Shown here: positions 3,047 through 26,275 of the stretch, piece by piece
How the letters are laid out: the number at the start of each line of letters is the position of its first letter
Numbering within the stretch: the first letter of the stretch is position 1
Origin: Candidatus Omnitrophota bacterium
Lineage (GTDB): Bacteria > Omnitrophota > Gorgyraeia > Aquiviventales > Aquiviventaceae
Length of the DNA stretch: 37,423 nucleotides
Direction of reading: 5' to 3'
Assembly (NCBI GenBank): GCA_023247215.1
Contig: JAHFGX010000013.1
Span: 1-37,423, forward strand
Translations under genes and position numbers: made by a program
Notes under the pieces: model-generated
What the model was told of the DNA's origin: nothing
The model's database searches: none
What the model saw: the letters and a program-made list of their open reading frames with translations, nothing else

Positions 3047-3064
3047 GAGACGTCTCCTTCTTAC

Positions 3065-4402
3065 TTACCGAACGCCGCAGCCCGCGCGGATCGCCGGGCG
3101 CAGCTCTCCCACAAGAAACAACGACCCGGTCACCACGATCACGCCGTCCGACCCGGCCGCGTTGAGCGCATAGGTCAACGCGTCCGCCGCCTCCGGAATG
3201 ACGGTGGGGGCCGGCCCATGCGGGGCGCAGGCGTCGGCCAGGCGCTGCGGATCGCACGCCCGAGGATGCCGGCTCTTCGTGCACACCACCGAGGCGGCCC
3301 CGGCCGCCAGGACGGCTGCGACGTCCGCCACCGCCTTGTCGGCGGAGAGGCCCATCAGCACGTGCAGGGGGCGCTCCGGCCACCACGCGGCGAGGGCCGC
3401 GCGAAGGGCCTGAGCCGCCGGCACGTTATGGGCGCCGTCCAGCACCACGACCGGGCGGCGCTGCACGACCTCCAGCCGGCCCGGCCATGAGACGCTGGCG
3501 AGGCCGGCCTGGATCGCCGCATGCGGCACGCCGGCTTCAGACAACGCCTCCACCGCCGCCACGGCCACGGCGGCGTTGTCCGCCTGGTGGCCGCCGATCA
3601 GCGGCAGCCACAGCTCCCGGTACGCCCCGCGCGTCCCGAGGAGATCCAGCGTCATCCCCTCGTCCCGATTGATGCGGCACTCGACCTGCAGCTCGCGGCC
3701 CAGCTGAAGGAGCCGGGCGCCGCGCTCGGCCGCCGCCTGCGCGATCGCCGCCGCCGCCTCGGGAGGCTGCACGCCGACCACCACCGTGCCGTGAGGTTTG
3801 ATGATCCCCGCCTTCTCGCGGGCAATCGAGGCGAGCTCCGCGCCAAGCACGTCGGTGTGATCCTGTCCGATCGGCGCGATCACGGAGACGGCCTGCTCGA
3901 CTACGTTGGTGGCGTCGAGGCGCCCGCCCAATCCGACCTCGAGCACGGCGACGCTGACGCGGGAGTCAAAGAAGTGCCGGAACGCGACTGCGGTCATCAC
4001 CTCGAAATAGGTCGGCGGATCATCCGCGAACTCCGGGGAGGCGGCGGCGTCGCGGACCGCCCGCACGGAGGAGGCGAAGTTCGCTTCGCTGATCCAGTCC
4101 TCCTCCGCGCCGGGCGTAGAGCTCACGCGGATGCGCTCCCGAACGTCTTCCAGATGAGGCGAGGTGTAGAGGCCCGTCCGCAACCCGGCCTGACGCAGCA
4201 TGGCGTAGATCATCGCGCAAATGGAGCCTTTGCCGTTGGTCCCCGCCACCAGCACCGACCGGAAGGCCGCCTCAGGGCGCCCCAGGCGCCGGCAGAGACG
4301 CTGCATGCGCTCCAACTGGATGCGCTGCATCGCCTGTGGATCGCGCCGCCGCTCGTAGTTCGTCAGGGAGTCCAGATAGGCGAGGGCGTCGGCGTAGGTC
4401 AT
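3065..4402 (-). CDS. folC: bifunctional folylpolyglutamate/dihydrofolate synthase
   Basis: MTYADALAYLDSL; VLVAGTNGKGS P-loop; FEVMTAVAF; GLGGRLDATNVV; DGAHN. Confidence 0.92.
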   Translation of the reverse strand: MTYADALAYLDSLTNYERRRDPQAMQRIQLERMQRLCRRLGRPEAAFRSVLVAGTNGKGSICAMIYAMLRQAGLRTGLYTSPHLEDVRERIRVSSTPGAEEDWISEANFASSVRAVRDAAASPEFADDPPTYFEVMTAVAFRHFFDSRVSVAVLEVGLGGRLDATNVVEQAVSVIAPIGQDHTDVLGAELASIAREKAGIIKPHGTVVVGVQPPEAAAAIAQAAAERGARLLQLGRELQVECRINRDEGMTLDLLGTRGAYRELWLPLIGGHQADNAAVAVAAVEALSEAGVPHAAIQAGLASVSWPGRLEVVQRRPVVVLDGAHNVPAAQALRAALAAWWPERPLHVLMGLSADKAVADVAAVLAAGAASVVCTKSRHPRACDPQRLADACAPHGPAPTVIPEAADALTYALNAAGSDGVIVVTGSLFLVGELRPAIRAGCGVR

Positions 4403-8959: not shown

Positions 8960-9538
8960 TTACAACTTCAAGAGGAGGCGCTTGATCTTCAGCAAGCGCA
9001 CATGCTCGTTCAGGGCCGCCAGCTCCTGATCCAACCGCTTGGCCTCGGCCAGGAGCTCGCCCAGCTCTCCCTCCAGGCGGGCGCGCTCGGCGGGAGTCCA
9101 CTGCGGGGTATTCGGGCCTTCCTTGAGCGACTTCCGAAGCTGGCTGATGGAGCGGCCCACGCTGGCGCGCTGGCCCCGCTTGGCCTTGCGCTCCTCCACC
9201 GCCATCGCAAAGGTCAGCTCGACCCGCTGCACCTCGGGCTGGATGATCAGTTTGATTCGCTGGATATCCTGGCGGGCCTTGGCGCTGGCATCATCCAGGT
9301 CTTTCCGGAGCTGGGCGATCTGCCGCTCGATTTGGCTGCGCTTCAGCGCCAGGTTGCGTTCCACGAGCCCGATCCGGTTGGCGAGCTCATCGTGCTTTTC
9401 CAGCGACCACGAGAACGCCGGATCAATCTCCAGCACTTCTTGCCGGAGGCGTTCCGGGTTCGGCGGCGGCCCGCAGCCGGAGAGGCCGAGCGCGCACGAC
9501 ACAACGAGGCTCCACCGCAGGAGGGAGGATGACATCAC
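8960..9538 (-). CDS. lipoprotein with long coiled-coil
   Basis: lipobox LGLSGC; heptad-rich, charged helical sequence. Confidence 0.65.
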   Translation of the reverse strand: MMSSSLLRWSLVVSCALGLSGCGPPPNPERLRQEVLEIDPAFSWSLEKHDELANRIGLVERNLALKRSQIERQIAQLRKDLDDASAKARQDIQRIKLIIQPEVQRVELTFAMAVEERKAKRGQRASVGRSISQLRKSLKEGPNTPQWTPAERARLEGELGELLAEAKRLDQELAALNEHVRLLKIKRLLLKL

Positions 9539-9594: not shown

Positions 9595-10773
9595 TCAGCG
9601 GATTTCGTCCAGCACGTAGGATGGTTCCGACACGGCCGCGCGGCGCTCGTCGCCCGCTCCCTCTTCTTTGTACGTATAGATCTTGCCCGCGTAGTTGCGC
9701 AGCACGATCTCGCCCGGCTTGTAGGAGATCACGTAATTGGGCATGACCGGGATCTTCCCGCCGCCGCCCGGCCCGTCCACCACGAAGGTGGGCACGGCGT
9801 AGCCGGTGGTGTGGCCGCGCAGCTTTTCGACGATTTGCACCCCGGTCCCGACCGTGGTCCGAAAGTGCGAGGTGCCCCGGACCGGATCGCACTGGTAGAT
9901 GTAGTAGGGGCGCACCCGCGTCTTGAGCAACTCGTGGAAGAGCTTCTTCATGATCGCCGGCCGGTCGTTGATGCCCTTGAGCAGCACGGTCTGCGATCCG
10001 AGCGGCACGCCGCTGTCGGCCAGCATGCCGCACGCCCGCTTGACGGCCGGGGTGACTTCCTTGGGGTGGTTGAAATGCACGCTCATCCAGACCGGCTTGT
10101 GCTTCCTCAGCACCGCGCAGAGCGACTCCGTCACCCGGTACGGCAGCGTCACGGGATTGCGGGTGCCGATCCGGACAAACTCCACGTGCGGGATGGCCTT
10201 CAGCTTGCCCAGGATCTCATCCAGCCGCTCATCGGAGAGCGTGAGCGGATCGCCGCCGGAAATGAGCACGTCGCGGATCTTCCGGTGGCGCTTGATGTAG
10301 TCAATCGCCGCGTCAATGTTGGTGCCGCGGCTGAAGCCGGCGCTCGTTCCCACCACCCGGCTGCGCGTGCAGAAGCGGCAGTACATCGCGCAGATCTCCA
10401 CCACCAGCAGCAGCACCCGGTCGGGATAGCGGTGCACCAGGCCGGGCACCGGCATATGGCTGTCTTCCGCCAACGGATCGCGGAAGTCATTCGGGCTGGT
10501 GTAATATTCCTCCTCCAGCGGCACCGCCTGGCGCCGGATCGGGCACGTCGGATCGTCCGGATCCATGAGCGCCGCCCAATACGGCGGCATGGCCATGATG
10601 AACCGCCCGTCCTGCTTCGTGACCGCCGCCTCTTCCGACGGAGTCAAATGGATGACCGAGCGCAGCTGCTCCACCGTCGTAATCCGGTTGCGCATCTGCC
10701 AGGCATAGGTCTCCCACTGCTCCAAGGGCACATCCTTCCACAAGGGAATGCGCCGATAGGCTTCCACGCTCAC
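9595..10773 (-). CDS. KamA-family radical SAM aminomutase, probable lysine 2,3-aminomutase
   Basis: ICAMYCRFCTRSRVVG (CxxxCxxC); YIYQCDPVRGTSHFRTTVGTG; GYAVPTFVVDGPGGGGKIPVMPNY; GTG at 10773 with GGAGGG upstream. Confidence 0.9.
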   Translation of the reverse strand: MSVEAYRRIPLWKDVPLEQWETYAWQMRNRITTVEQLRSVIHLTPSEEAAVTKQDGRFIMAMPPYWAALMDPDDPTCPIRRQAVPLEEEYYTSPNDFRDPLAEDSHMPVPGLVHRYPDRVLLLVVEICAMYCRFCTRSRVVGTSAGFSRGTNIDAAIDYIKRHRKIRDVLISGGDPLTLSDERLDEILGKLKAIPHVEFVRIGTRNPVTLPYRVTESLCAVLRKHKPVWMSVHFNHPKEVTPAVKRACGMLADSGVPLGSQTVLLKGINDRPAIMKKLFHELLKTRVRPYYIYQCDPVRGTSHFRTTVGTGVQIVEKLRGHTTGYAVPTFVVDGPGGGGKIPVMPNYVISYKPGEIVLRNYAGKIYTYKEEGAGDERRAAVSEPSYVLDEIR

Positions 10774-10802
10774 GCTTGCTGTCCCTCCTGCTGCCCCCAC
10801 CC

Positions 10803-11867
10803 TCAAGGAGCGTTCCGGCTCGCCGCGAGCTGGCTTGAGCACAGCTCTTGAGGTGGGGCCACACGGTGACGTCCCACCGCCATCTCAACCAAACGGTTGA
10901 TGAGCGCCGGGTATGGAATGCCGGCGGCAGCGGTCATAATCGGCAAGTTGCTCTCGGTGGGGTCCAATCCGGGGAGTGGATTGACCTCCAGCACGAAGGG
11001 AACCCCGTCGCGGCGCAGCCGGACATCGGTCCGGGACACGTCCCGGCATCCCAGCGCGCGGTGTGCCCGCAGGACCAACGCCTGGATGCCAGCCGTCAGC
11101 TCCGGCGACAGCCGGGCCGGGCAGTGGAACGTGGGGGTCAGGCCCAAGGCCACATCCCCCTGGTACTCTTTCATCCGCCAGGAATAGAAGAACTCGCCTG
11201 ATCCTTGGCAGCTCGAAAAATCAATTTCCAACATCGGCAGGACCTGCGGCTCGCCGTTGCCCAGCACGCCGACCGTCAGCTCCACCCCCTCGATGAATTC
11301 TTCAACCAGCACGTCTTGGTGATACTGCCCCATCACGCGGTGGATTTGCCGGCGCAGCGAGGCGTCGTCGTGCACTACGCTCTCGCGCAGGATGCCCTTT
11401 GCCGAGCCTTCGCGGTTCGGCTTCACGATCAAGGGAAACTGCAGCGCGGGATTCCGCGGCGCATCAGCCGCGCGGAAGACCTGCCAGGCCGGGGTGGGGA
11501 TGCCCTCGCAGGCCAGCAGCTGTTTCGTGCGGGCCTTATTCAGGGCGAGGGCCAATGTGGTGCTGCTGGAGCCGGTGAACGGGATGTCCAAGGATTCGAG
11601 GATGGCCGGGACGTACGATTCGCGATGGCCGCCGCGGGCGCCTTCGGCGATGTTGAAGACCGCGTCCACCGGGTGCGCCAGCAACCAGGCCGGAAGCTGC
11701 TCGTCCGCTTCCACGAGGTGCACCGCGTGGCCGCCGCTGCGGATCGCGCCGGCGATGGCGTCCACCGTCGCCGGCGAATCGAACTCCGAATAGAAGTCAA
11801 AGGGCACCGCATCCGCTCCGCGCAGCGGGCGCTTGAGATTGTAGGTTAGTGCGACGACGTGGCCGAT
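10803..11867 (-). CDS. D-Ala-D-Ala ligase-like ATP-grasp protein (paralog B), apparent ATC start
   Basis: FNIAEGARGGHRESYVPAILESLDIPFTGSSS; PLIVKPNREGSAKGI; VEEFIEGVELTVGVLG; FVLEVNPLPGLDPTESN; N-terminus aligned with paralog A. Confidence 0.85.
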   Translation of the reverse strand: MGHVVALTYNLKRPLRGADAVPFDFYSEFDSPATVDAIAGAIRSGGHAVHLVEADEQLPAWLLAHPVDAVFNIAEGARGGHRESYVPAILESLDIPFTGSSSTTLALALNKARTKQLLACEGIPTPAWQVFRAADAPRNPALQFPLIVKPNREGSAKGILRESVVHDDASLRRQIHRVMGQYHQDVLVEEFIEGVELTVGVLGNGEPQVLPMLEIDFSSCQGSGEFFYSWRMKEYQGDVALGLTPTFHCPARLSPELTAGIQALVLRAHRALGCRDVSRTDVRLRRDGVPFVLEVNPLPGLDPTESNLPIMTAAAGIPYPALINRLVEMAVGRHRVAPPQELCSSQLAASRNAP

Positions 11868-12874
11868 AGCAACGGCTCCGCGTTGGCCTTCAACCCATGG
11901 CGCACGAGGGCGGCGTCCAGAATCCGGTTGATGACCGCCTCGTACGTCGTGCCCTGCGCCTTGGCGACGCACATGAACACATCTTCGGTGGACAGCGACG
12001 GCAAGGGGTTGATCTCCAGCACGTACGGCTCGCCCTGCCGGTCCACCCGGATGTCCACGCGCCCGAAATCCACGCAATCCACCGCGCGATACGTCTGCAG
12101 CGCGACCGCCTCCAGCCGCTGCCGCAGCTCCGCGTCAATCGCCGCCGGGCAGACGTAATCGGCGCCGGAGTGGATGTGCTCGAAGGCGTAAAACAGCCGG
12201 CCGAGGTCCAGCTTGCCTTCAATCTGGATCTGGACGACGGGCTGCGCCTCCGGCGGCTGGTTGCCGATGATCGCGACGGTGAACTCCTGCCCTTCGATGA
12301 ACTCTTCCACCAGCGCCGGCTGCTGGTAGGTTTCGATGAGCCAGGCCGTTTGCCGGGCCAGCTCCTGCGGGGTGGTCACCAGCGAGCTCTTGCGCATCCC
12401 CTTGCTGGACCCTTCGCAGCGAGGCTTGGCGATCAGCGGGTAGCGCAGCGGCACCGTCCACGCCTCCTCCGGGTTCCGCACTTCGGCAAACCGCGGGGTG
12501 GGGATGTTTTCGGCGATCAGGATTTTCTTCGTGACGATCTTGTCCAGCGTCATGCCCTGCGTGAGGCCGTCGCCGCCGACGAAGGGCACGCGCAGCATCT
12601 CCAGGAGGATCGGCACCTGGGACTCGCGGTTGCGGCCCTCGTCGCCTTCCGCGATGTTGAAGACGATGTCGAGGTGCTTGACGCGATGCAGCTGCGTCAG
12701 GAGGGTGCGGGCGTTGCCGAGCCGGGTGACCTCATGGCCGCCGGACCGGATCGCGGCCTCGATCACGCCGATGGTGTCCTCGTGATCGAACTCCGCGTTC
12801 GCGTCCGGGGGATCCCCGGGCTTGAACACGTACTCGCTCTTGACGTTGTAGGTCAAGCCGACTCGATAGCCCAT
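11846..12874 (-). CDS. D-Ala-D-Ala ligase-like ATP-grasp protein (paralog A)
   Basis: MGYRVGLTYNVK; FNIAEGDEGRNRESQVPILLEMLRVPFVGGD; PLIAKPRCEGSSKGM; VEEFIEGQEFTVAIIG; YVLEINPLPSLSTED. Confidence 0.88.
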   Translation of the reverse strand: MGYRVGLTYNVKSEYVFKPGDPPDANAEFDHEDTIGVIEAAIRSGGHEVTRLGNARTLLTQLHRVKHLDIVFNIAEGDEGRNRESQVPILLEMLRVPFVGGDGLTQGMTLDKIVTKKILIAENIPTPRFAEVRNPEEAWTVPLRYPLIAKPRCEGSSKGMRKSSLVTTPQELARQTAWLIETYQQPALVEEFIEGQEFTVAIIGNQPPEAQPVVQIQIEGKLDLGRLFYAFEHIHSGADYVCPAAIDAELRQRLEAVALQTYRAVDCVDFGRVDIRVDRQGEPYVLEINPLPSLSTEDVFMCVAKAQGTTYEAVINRILDAALVRHGLKANAEPLLSATSSH

Positions 12875-23459: not shown

Positions 23460-24923
23460 ATGGCCACCGAACGAATTCCTCGCGAACTCATCCTCCAAGT
23501 GACGCGGTTCCTCAAGCGCCAGGGAGCGGACTACGCCGACGTCCGCTTCGAGCGGATCCTCCACGAAAGCGTGGTAGTGCAGCAGCGCCAGGTGCAGTCC
23601 CTCAGCGTCGAGGAAACCGCCGGGGTCGGCATCCGGGTGCTGCTCCGCGGGGCCTGGGGCTTCGCCGCCACTCCGCATCTAGCGCTTCCCCACCTGAAGC
23701 GCGCGGCGGCGCAGGCGGTCGCGCTGGCCAAGGCCTCCTCGTCCATCAACAAGCAGCGGGTGCGATTGGCCCCCGTGGAGCCGGTCCGCGCGGCACACCG
23801 CTCGCGGTACCAGATTGATCCGTTTGAGGTCCCCCTCTCCAAGAAACTCGATTACCTGCTCTGGGCCACCTCCGCCCTGATGGGGCCGCAGGCTGTGAAG
23901 CGCGCCACGGCCCACATGGATTTTTACCGGCGGACGAAGTTCTTCGCCTCCACCGACGGCGCGCAGATCCACCAGGTGCTGCTCGAGAGCGGCGCCGGGC
24001 TGGAAGTGGTGGCTCAGCAGGGCAACGAAGTGCGGCTGCGCAGCTACCCGAATTCCCACCACGGCGCCCTGGCCCAGGCCGGGTTCGAATACGTCAAGCA
24101 GTTGGACCTGGTCGGCGGAGCGAAGACCATCCAGCAGGAAGTGCTGCTGCTCCTCCGGGCGCGGCCGCCTAAACCGGGCCTGACCACGCTGATCCTGGAC
24201 CCCACGCAGATGGTCATGCAGCTCCATGAATCGTGCGGCCACCCGACGGAGCTGGACCGCGTGCTAGGCCAAGAGCTCAGTTACGCCGGGGGCAGCTTCC
24301 TGACGCCGGAGCATTTGGGGCGCCTGCGCTACGGCTCCGACGCGGTGACCATCGTGGCCGACGCGACCGTGCCGGGCGGGGTGGGCAGCTTCGCCTACGA
24401 CGACGAAGGCGTGCCGGCGCAGCGGGTGGAGCTGGTCCGGCGCGGACTGTTCACCGGCTATTTGAGTTCGCGGGAATCCGCCTCCCGGCTGGGCCTGCCC
24501 GGCAGCGGTGGGGCCATGCGGGCCGAGCAATGGGACGCCCCGCCCCTGGTGCGTATGACAAACGTGAACCTGGAGCCCGGCGAGGCCACCGTCGAGCAGC
24601 TGATCCGGGACGTCAAGCGCGGCTATCTCCTCAGCACCAACAAAAGCTGGTCCATTGACGACCGCCGCCTGAACTTCCAATTCTCCACCGAGATCGGCCG
24701 GGAGATCATCAACGGCTCGCTGGGGGCGCTGGTCGCCAACCCGCTCTACACCGGGATCACGCCGCAGTTTTGGGGGCGCTGCACCGGGGTGTCGAACCGC
24801 GCAAGCTGGCAGCTCTGGGGCGTGCCGAATTGCGCCAAGGGCGAACCCATGCAGTTGATGCACGTGGGGCACGGCGCGCCGTACGCGCGCTTCGACGGCG
24901 TCTGGCTCGGCGCGGCGGATTAA
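23460..24923 (+). CDS. tldD: TldD family metalloprotease subunit
   Basis: YADVRFERI; MQLHESCGHPTELDRVLGQELSYAGGSFLTP (HExxxH); LSTNKSWSIDDRRLNFQFSTEIGREI. Confidence 0.85.
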   Translation: MATERIPRELILQVTRFLKRQGADYADVRFERILHESVVVQQRQVQSLSVEETAGVGIRVLLRGAWGFAATPHLALPHLKRAAAQAVALAKASSSINKQRVRLAPVEPVRAAHRSRYQIDPFEVPLSKKLDYLLWATSALMGPQAVKRATAHMDFYRRTKFFASTDGAQIHQVLLESGAGLEVVAQQGNEVRLRSYPNSHHGALAQAGFEYVKQLDLVGGAKTIQQEVLLLLRARPPKPGLTTLILDPTQMVMQLHESCGHPTELDRVLGQELSYAGGSFLTPEHLGRLRYGSDAVTIVADATVPGGVGSFAYDDEGVPAQRVELVRRGLFTGYLSSRESASRLGLPGSGGAMRAEQWDAPPLVRMTNVNLEPGEATVEQLIRDVKRGYLLSTNKSWSIDDRRLNFQFSTEIGREIINGSLGALVANPLYTGITPQFWGRCTGVSNRASWQLWGVPNCAKGEPMQLMHVGHGAPYARFDGVWLGAAD

Positions 24924-26275
24924 TGGTGGGTTCTTCCCAACTTCTCGACGAGCTCTCCCGGCTGGTGAAGCGCTCCCCGGCGGACGGCACTAGCATCTGC
25001 GCCCAGGGACAAGGGCGCCACGTCATGCGTTTTGCGTACGGCACGATCCACCAGGTGCTGTTCCAGGAGCACCTGACCGTCACGATCAAAGCGGTGCTCG
25101 GCAAGCGGGTGGGCGTGGCCTCCACCGATACGTTTGAACGCGCCAGCTTGAACCGCACCCTGGCCGCCGCCCTCGCCCTGGCCCGGCACGCTCCCAACCA
25201 GCCGTCTCTGTCGCCGCTGCCCGCCGCGCACCAGCTCCTGACGACGGAAGACCGAGACGATGCCACCGCCCAGGCCGGACCAGAGGCGGTTCTTCCCGCG
25301 ATCAAGCGGGTGTTCCAGCTCTGCCAAGGCGCGGGAGCGTCGCTGGCCGGATCGTGCGCTCTCGGAGAGGACGAGCTGGCCGTCGTCAACTCCTCCGGGG
25401 TGGCCTGTTACGCCGCCTCGACGCTGACCGGCGCCAAGCTCGTGACGATGTACCGCAAGTTGAGCGGCTTCGCCAGCCTCGTGGAGCGCCGCCTGAGCCG
25501 GCTCAATTTTGACGATCTCCTGGAGACCTCGCTGGCCCAATGCCTGCACCGCCAGGCGCCGGTGACGCTCCCGTTGGGGACGTATGAGGTGATCCTGGAG
25601 CCGGAGGCGGTGGCGGAGCTGCTGATGTGGCTGGGGTCCATCGCGTTCGGCGCCAAGAGCTTTCACGAAAAAACCAGCTGCGTGGCGGGCCGGCTCGGCG
25701 AGCAGGTGATGGACCGCCGGATCACCATCCTCGACGACGGCACGCGCCCGGAGGGGCTGCGGATGCTGTTCGATTTCGAGGGCGTGCCGAAGCGGCGGGT
25801 GCCCCTAATCGAGCGCGGCACGGCGGCCGGCCTGGTCTATGATTCCACGTACGGCCACCTCTACGGACAGACCTCCACCGGCCACGGCCTCCCGCCGGAT
25901 GACGTGGAAGGGCCGCAACCATTGCATCTGTTCCTGGAGCCCGGATCCGTCCCGCGCGAAGAGCTGATCCGACGGTGCGAGCGCGGCATCCTGATCCCCC
26001 GGTTCCACTACGTCAACGGCCTGCTGAACCCACCCGAGGCGCTGATGACCGGCCTCACCCGCGAAGGCGCCTGGCTGATTGAAGACGGCAAGCGCAAGGC
26101 GCCGATCACGACCCTGCGGTTTACGCACAGCCTGGTGGACGCGCTGCGCCATGTCGTCGCCATCTCGAAGGAGCGCCGGCGCGTGGCCGACCCGATGCAG
26201 GAGTCGGGATGCGCGGTCGTGCCGACGCTGCACCTGGCGCGCTTGCGCTTCACCGGACGGTCGGAGGACGCATGA
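24923..26275 (+). CDS. TldE/PmbA family protein, TldD partner
   Basis: start overlaps tldD stop (TAATG); VILEPEAVAELLMWLGSIAFGAKSFHEKTS; GLVYDSTYGHLYGQTSTGHG. Confidence 0.8.
   Translation: MVGSSQLLDELSRLVKRSPADGTSICAQGQGRHVMRFAYGTIHQVLFQEHLTVTIKAVLGKRVGVASTDTFERASLNRTLAAALALARHAPNQPSLSPLPAAHQLLTTEDRDDATAQAGPEAVLPAIKRVFQLCQGAGASLAGSCALGEDELAVVNSSGVACYAASTLTGAKLVTMYRKLSGFASLVERRLSRLNFDDLLETSLAQCLHRQAPVTLPLGTYEVILEPEAVAELLMWLGSIAFGAKSFHEKTSCVAGRLGEQVMDRRITILDDGTRPEGLRMLFDFEGVPKRRVPLIERGTAAGLVYDSTYGHLYGQTSTGHGLPPDDVEGPQPLHLFLEPGSVPREELIRRCERGILIPRFHYVNGLLNPPEALMTGLTREGAWLIEDGKRKAPITTLRFTHSLVDALRHVVAISKERRRVADPMQESGCAVVPTLHLARLRFTGRSEDA

Follow-up and report, generated by a model that had tools for sequence, protein, structure and literature searches.

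What do two Ddl-like ATP-grasp ligases and a lysine 2,3-aminomutase-like enzyme make together, when their genes form one co-directional run in the 1.46-Mb, 92%-complete genome of an Omnitrophota bacterium? The trio is encoded on the minus strand in the order LigA, LigB, KamA, within 37,423 nt of contig sequence; this whole stretch was analysed and is referred to below as the window. The first-pass annotation had proposed a pathway to small peptides containing beta-lysine. The features concerned are as follows.

11846..12874, minus strand: LigA, Ddl-like ATP-grasp ligase, 342 aa, ATG start, first gene of the trio, PF07478
10803..11867, minus strand: LigB, second Ddl-like ATP-grasp ligase, 354 aa if it starts at the ATC codon at 11867, PF07478
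9595..10773, minus strand: KamA, lysine 2,3-aminomutase-like radical SAM/PLP enzyme, 392 aa, GTG start
8960..9538, minus strand: lipoprotein-like neighbour, 192 aa, downstream of KamA

The coordinates and order of the three co-directional ORFs are borne out, as is the position of the KamA GTG start (10773), 29 nt past the stop of LigB. Concerning the 22-nt overlap of LigA and LigB, the coordinates hold, but the LigB start that they imply at 11867 is an ATC codon and not ATG. ATC is also found at this position in the near relative L041, while more distant relatives have ATG; the alternative start, called mechanically, is a TTG at 12077. In the LigB model based on the ATC start a beta strand is located at residues 4–9, just after the start (pLDDT 87), and ATC is probably the start codon of LigB in its family. 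The 192-aa lipoprotein-like protein is encoded next to KamA at five loci in the class, including the window; it has no match in Pfam and NCBIfam searches and is probably outside the pathway. Around the trio, Omnitrophota genomes carry housekeeping genes (purH, folC, mnmE), which are uninformative on the product. In another part of the window (23460–26275), 11 kb from the trio, there are two ORFs on the other strand, one of which is a PmbA/TldD-type peptidase; their homologues adjoin the kamA–ligase genes in the more distant Omnitrophota L066, L078 and L079.

Compared with the Clostridium lysine 2,3-aminomutase (LAM) 2a5h, KamA gives a phmmer E-value of 1.7e-136 over 364 aligned residues. It contains the radical SAM motif CxxxCxxC, the PLP lysine and both LAM aspartates, which align with D293 and D330 of 2a5h; the first-pass annotation was right about the aspartates, and the motifs that it quoted for LigA, LigB and KamA are all found. 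Based on the NCBIfam models, KamA scores 511.7 bits against AblA (TIGR03820, cut-off 525.4) and 248 bits against EpmB (TIGR03821, cut-off 369), and it is far under the cut-offs for glutamate and arginine aminomutase. The C-terminal cysteine tail of AblA is missing and position 268 is occupied by Arg instead of C268; this cysteine and the tail form what we take to be the zinc site of 2a5h. Among 104 KamA sequences at related loci, D293 and D330 are retained in 102 (one further row is incomplete) and C268 is nearly always missing, although L156 has Cys. The ligase-free Omnitrophota loci L177–L179 contain KamA proteins with C268 and a cysteine-rich tail. KamA is a single-copy gene, no second KamA being found in the genome of the window. 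The protein most likely converts L-lysine to beta-lysine.

The fold and the conserved ATP/Mg residues place LigA and LigB in the Ddl-fold ATP-grasp superfamily. Both match the Pfam domain Dala_Dala_lig_C (PF07478); the top Foldseek matches of the LigA AlphaFold model (pLDDT 91) are D-Ala-D-Ala ligases, and the best structure matches of the LigB model (pLDDT 87) are Ddl. In E. coli DdlB numbering, K97, K144, E180, E187, R255, D257, E270 and N272 are kept, with no variation in either protein at Arg255 and the ATP/Mg residues tested. The fold, these residues and Arg255 are shared with the Ddl and Van ligases, whereas the NTxPG motif and Tyr216 are altered, as is part of the acceptor site. NPLP replaces NTxPG in both LigA and LigB, and Tyr216 corresponds to variable residues in LigA and to Glu in LigB. 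Lys215 and Ser281 of Ddl are retained by LigB and lost by LigA, which has Asp at 281. In the column of DdlB Glu15 the ligases have Ala or Ser beside an invariant Glu, which may be an alignment shift. Both proteins are also under the cut-offs of every D-Ala-D-Ala ligase model listed in NCBIfam and fall outside the Ddl clade, and the view that they are not ordinary cell-wall Ddl is upheld by these losses, scores and placement.

The deep branches of the ligase tree are weak and its firm clades are LigB and Ddl only, LigB being a separate clade with support of 100/100. The two ligases had been described as clear paralogs; they do share motifs, but LigB is an old clade of its own and not a recent copy of LigA. 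A recent duplication of LigA was considered as the origin of LigB and finds no support in the tree. In other phyla the place of the second ligase is taken by another divergent ligase with an NPNP motif. The genome of the window also contains a third LigA-like ligase with the motif NPLPS (L009:7469–8494, contig C19 of G000), which stands alone and is followed by a methyltransferase; relatives of this ligase are found in L167–L169 and L150, and a methyltransferase follows in L150 too. Concerning enzymes of other families, the L-amino acid ligase BL00235 and carnosine synthase share with LigA and LigB a probable reaction type (ATP-dependent amide bond formation between free amino acids) but are distant in sequence (3vot, E 2e-16 in a profile comparison), and we know of no tie between either of them and an aminomutase.

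The order LigA–LigB–KamA is found in 29/29 of the relatives first examined. Searching 193 sampled Omnitrophota genomes gave 92 KamA matches, 83 of which have a ligase of the LigA/LigB type within 4 kb, where about one is expected by chance; the genome-level table reads 84/1/5/103, and since these genomes are related, shared ancestry inflates the P values. Two ligases are present in 40 of the 83 loci and one in 43, the single-ligase loci retaining the LigA type; the pairing of KamA with a ligase is therefore conserved, but the second ligase of the trio is optional. The nine unpaired KamA matches include two from contigs that also encode a true AblB (G177 and G141), one at a contig break and two weak matches. 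In the Dehalococcoidia sample (100 genomes) KamA is found in 17 and the ligase in 15, and the two are adjacent in 15/15. The order is ligase–KamA in Elusimicrobiota and Bacillota, KamA–ligase–ligase–GNAT in Dehalococcoidales and Calditrichota, GNAT–KamA–ligase in Bathyarchaeota, ligase–ligase–KamA in the archaeon Ainarchaeum, and KamA–ligase in Gemmatales (Planctomycetota). Genomes which contain a ligase but no flanking KamA carry KamA elsewhere in 11 of 12 cases; some ligases lie away from KamA, and other substrates are conceivable for those which have different neighbours. In a groundwater bacterium ligase and KamA are fused in one ORF of 718 aa (L157:5998–8154); here the KamA position D293 is Gln, so that this member may use another substrate. 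The partnership of KamA and ligase is not a local accident. A full-text search of open-licence papers yielded no account of KamA paired with Ddl-like ligases, and the main paper on Omnitrophota mentions neither KamA nor enzymes of the LigA and LigB type.

The reading that we prefer, at a probability of about 0.7, is a dedicated beta-lysine branch in which small beta-lysyl peptides would be formed by the ATP-grasp ligases and, in some lineages, N-acetylated. It is based on the fold, the catalytic residues, the conserved co-localisation and the distinctness from Ddl and from AblA/AblB; from these we infer the substrates, the order of steps, the peptide product and its role. The checks proposed together with the original interpretation also support it: a separate canonical ddl is present, AblB is undetected in the 92%-complete genome, and the trio or pair is strongly conserved in related genomes. 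KamA would turn L-lysine into beta-lysine by radical-SAM/PLP chemistry. LigA would then phosphorylate a carboxylate with ATP and join an amine to it, by acyl-phosphate chemistry as in Ddl; the resulting amide would link beta-lysine to a further amino acid. LigB, in which Lys215 and Ser281 are kept, would carry out the second ligation and differ from LigA in its acceptor chemistry. The small beta-lysyl product would probably be tripeptide-sized; more generally, a dipeptide would be expected from one ligase, and from two either a tripeptide or a second linkage. The GNAT present in the clusters of other lineages probably caps an amine. The product could be a compatible solute, a metal ligand, or an envelope or storage compound. 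Two further neighbours belong here. In L160 a peptidase (3057–4328) of family S58, a family that includes beta-aminopeptidases, adjoins a ligase of the LigA/LigB type and was counted in favour of the beta-lysyl peptide reading. A protein of about 329 aa, with no family match, follows the ligases in L070 (9889–10878) and also in L067, L155 and L182; for the neighbour in L067, L070 and L155, no structure match was found either.

Concerning the role, the alternative that survives best is that the peptide, acetylated in some lineages, serves as a compatible solute analogous to N-acetyl-beta-lysine, with the ligases acting in place of or alongside AblB. An osmolyte had been suggested from the outset; it is plausible, yet one possibility among several, and we regard it as a tentative candidate rather than a probable one. 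Two Omnitrophota genomes have KamA and a true ablB on one contig instead of the ligases, which agrees with such a role. So do the GNAT enzymes, which are found beside the set in Chloroflexota, Calditrichota, Bathyarchaeota and the Omnitrophota locus L186 and suggest N-acetylation. The reported lack of AblB, the usual GNAT partner, holds for the window and for the genome, but a GNAT does join the cluster in those other lineages. The AblAB pathway itself was rejected for the genome of the window, as there is no ablB.

The likeness to AblA/AblB consists of a LAM with both lysine-binding aspartates and of the GNATs in some of the new clusters. The differences are the missing AblB, a KamA without C268 and the cysteine tail that is sub-cut-off for AblA, a partnership with one or two ATP-grasp ligases, and the coexistence of the pair with an AblA–AblB fusion in one Dehalococcoidia genome. 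The genomes G306, G257 and G221 of this class have, besides the KamA–ligase pair, another KamA encoded in a long frame; in G306 this is the AblA–AblB fusion (741 aa, L244:3727–5952, above both cut-offs). Since these three genomes still keep the pair, it is not merely a substitute for N-acetyl-beta-lysine synthesis; an additional aminomutase dedicated to a ligase partner implies that the beta-lysine it forms goes into another product. Against the osmolyte there also stand the Rfam riboswitch search of the KamA–ligase loci, which returned no match, the housekeeping neighbours, and the many hosts that come from groundwater or lakes.

An unlikely version of the role is metal handling, the product being a small metal-binding peptide with which Zn, Mn or Fe is taken up or buffered. 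It is suggested by MgtE and Nramp upstream of the pair in one Omnitrophota group, by a CDF efflux protein (L066) and TerC (L079), and by a Fur-family regulator accompanied by ZnuA and an ABC transporter (L243). This apparent recurrence of transporters was noticed post hoc, and neither the trio of the window nor the majority of loci has such transporters nearby. The loci with metal transporters beside the pair are L062–L064, L066, L072, L074–L076, L079 and L243.

Beta-lysylation of EF-P, with the ligases standing in for EpmA, is very improbable. The genome does contain EF-P with the lysine-tip motif KPGKG and has no EpmA above cut-off, the sub-cut-off matches being of the LysRS kind. As in the EpmA/EpmB system, a KamA-family aminomutase without the Zn tail would give beta-lysine, but here EpmA is missing, KamA reaches 248 bits where EpmB needs 369, and the partners are ATP-grasp enzymes. 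The identical tip is also present in Omnitrophota genomes without KamA, and so occurs with and without the trio; the pair is found in archaea, which have aIF5A and not EF-P; and the known substrates of Ddl-type ligases are small molecules.

We give hardly any credence to the proposal that LigA and LigB are ordinary D-Ala-D-Ala ligases or cell-wall enzymes with KamA as an unrelated neighbour, even though their nearest solved structures are all Ddl. The canonical ddl encodes NTIPG and the Lys-Tyr pair and stands apart in the dcw cluster; it is split over contigs C36 and C32, between murB and the next division genes, and on C36 it follows what is presumably a murD-ftsW-murG-murC-murB run, the genes being named by sequence recognition. 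Ordinary Ddl is rejected because this gene exists and the ligases have lost the D-Ala determinants; also, the adjacency to KamA is far above chance, and the pair occurs in Bathyarchaeota and another archaeon, archaea being without bacterial peptidoglycan. Equally hard to credit is that KamA, although lysine fermentation does start with this enzyme, serves that route with the ligases incidental, as no further lysine-fermentation gene is recognised among the annotated neighbours and the ligase pairing is tight across phyla.

Returning to the beta-lysyl peptide branch, we lean slightly towards the wider view that KamA and the Ddl-like ligases form an undescribed, ancient and widespread bacterial and archaeal pathway to soluble beta-lysyl di- or tripeptides, distinct from that to N-acetyl-beta-lysine and, in some organisms, coexisting with it. 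The known occurrences of beta-lysine are one osmolyte, one modification of a translation factor and a few antibiotics. A conserved set of enzymes which seemingly builds it into peptides in many phyla, small-genome candidate phyla included, would point to a missing small molecule, and many of the ‘D-Ala-D-Ala ligase’ annotations in these genomes are probably wrong.
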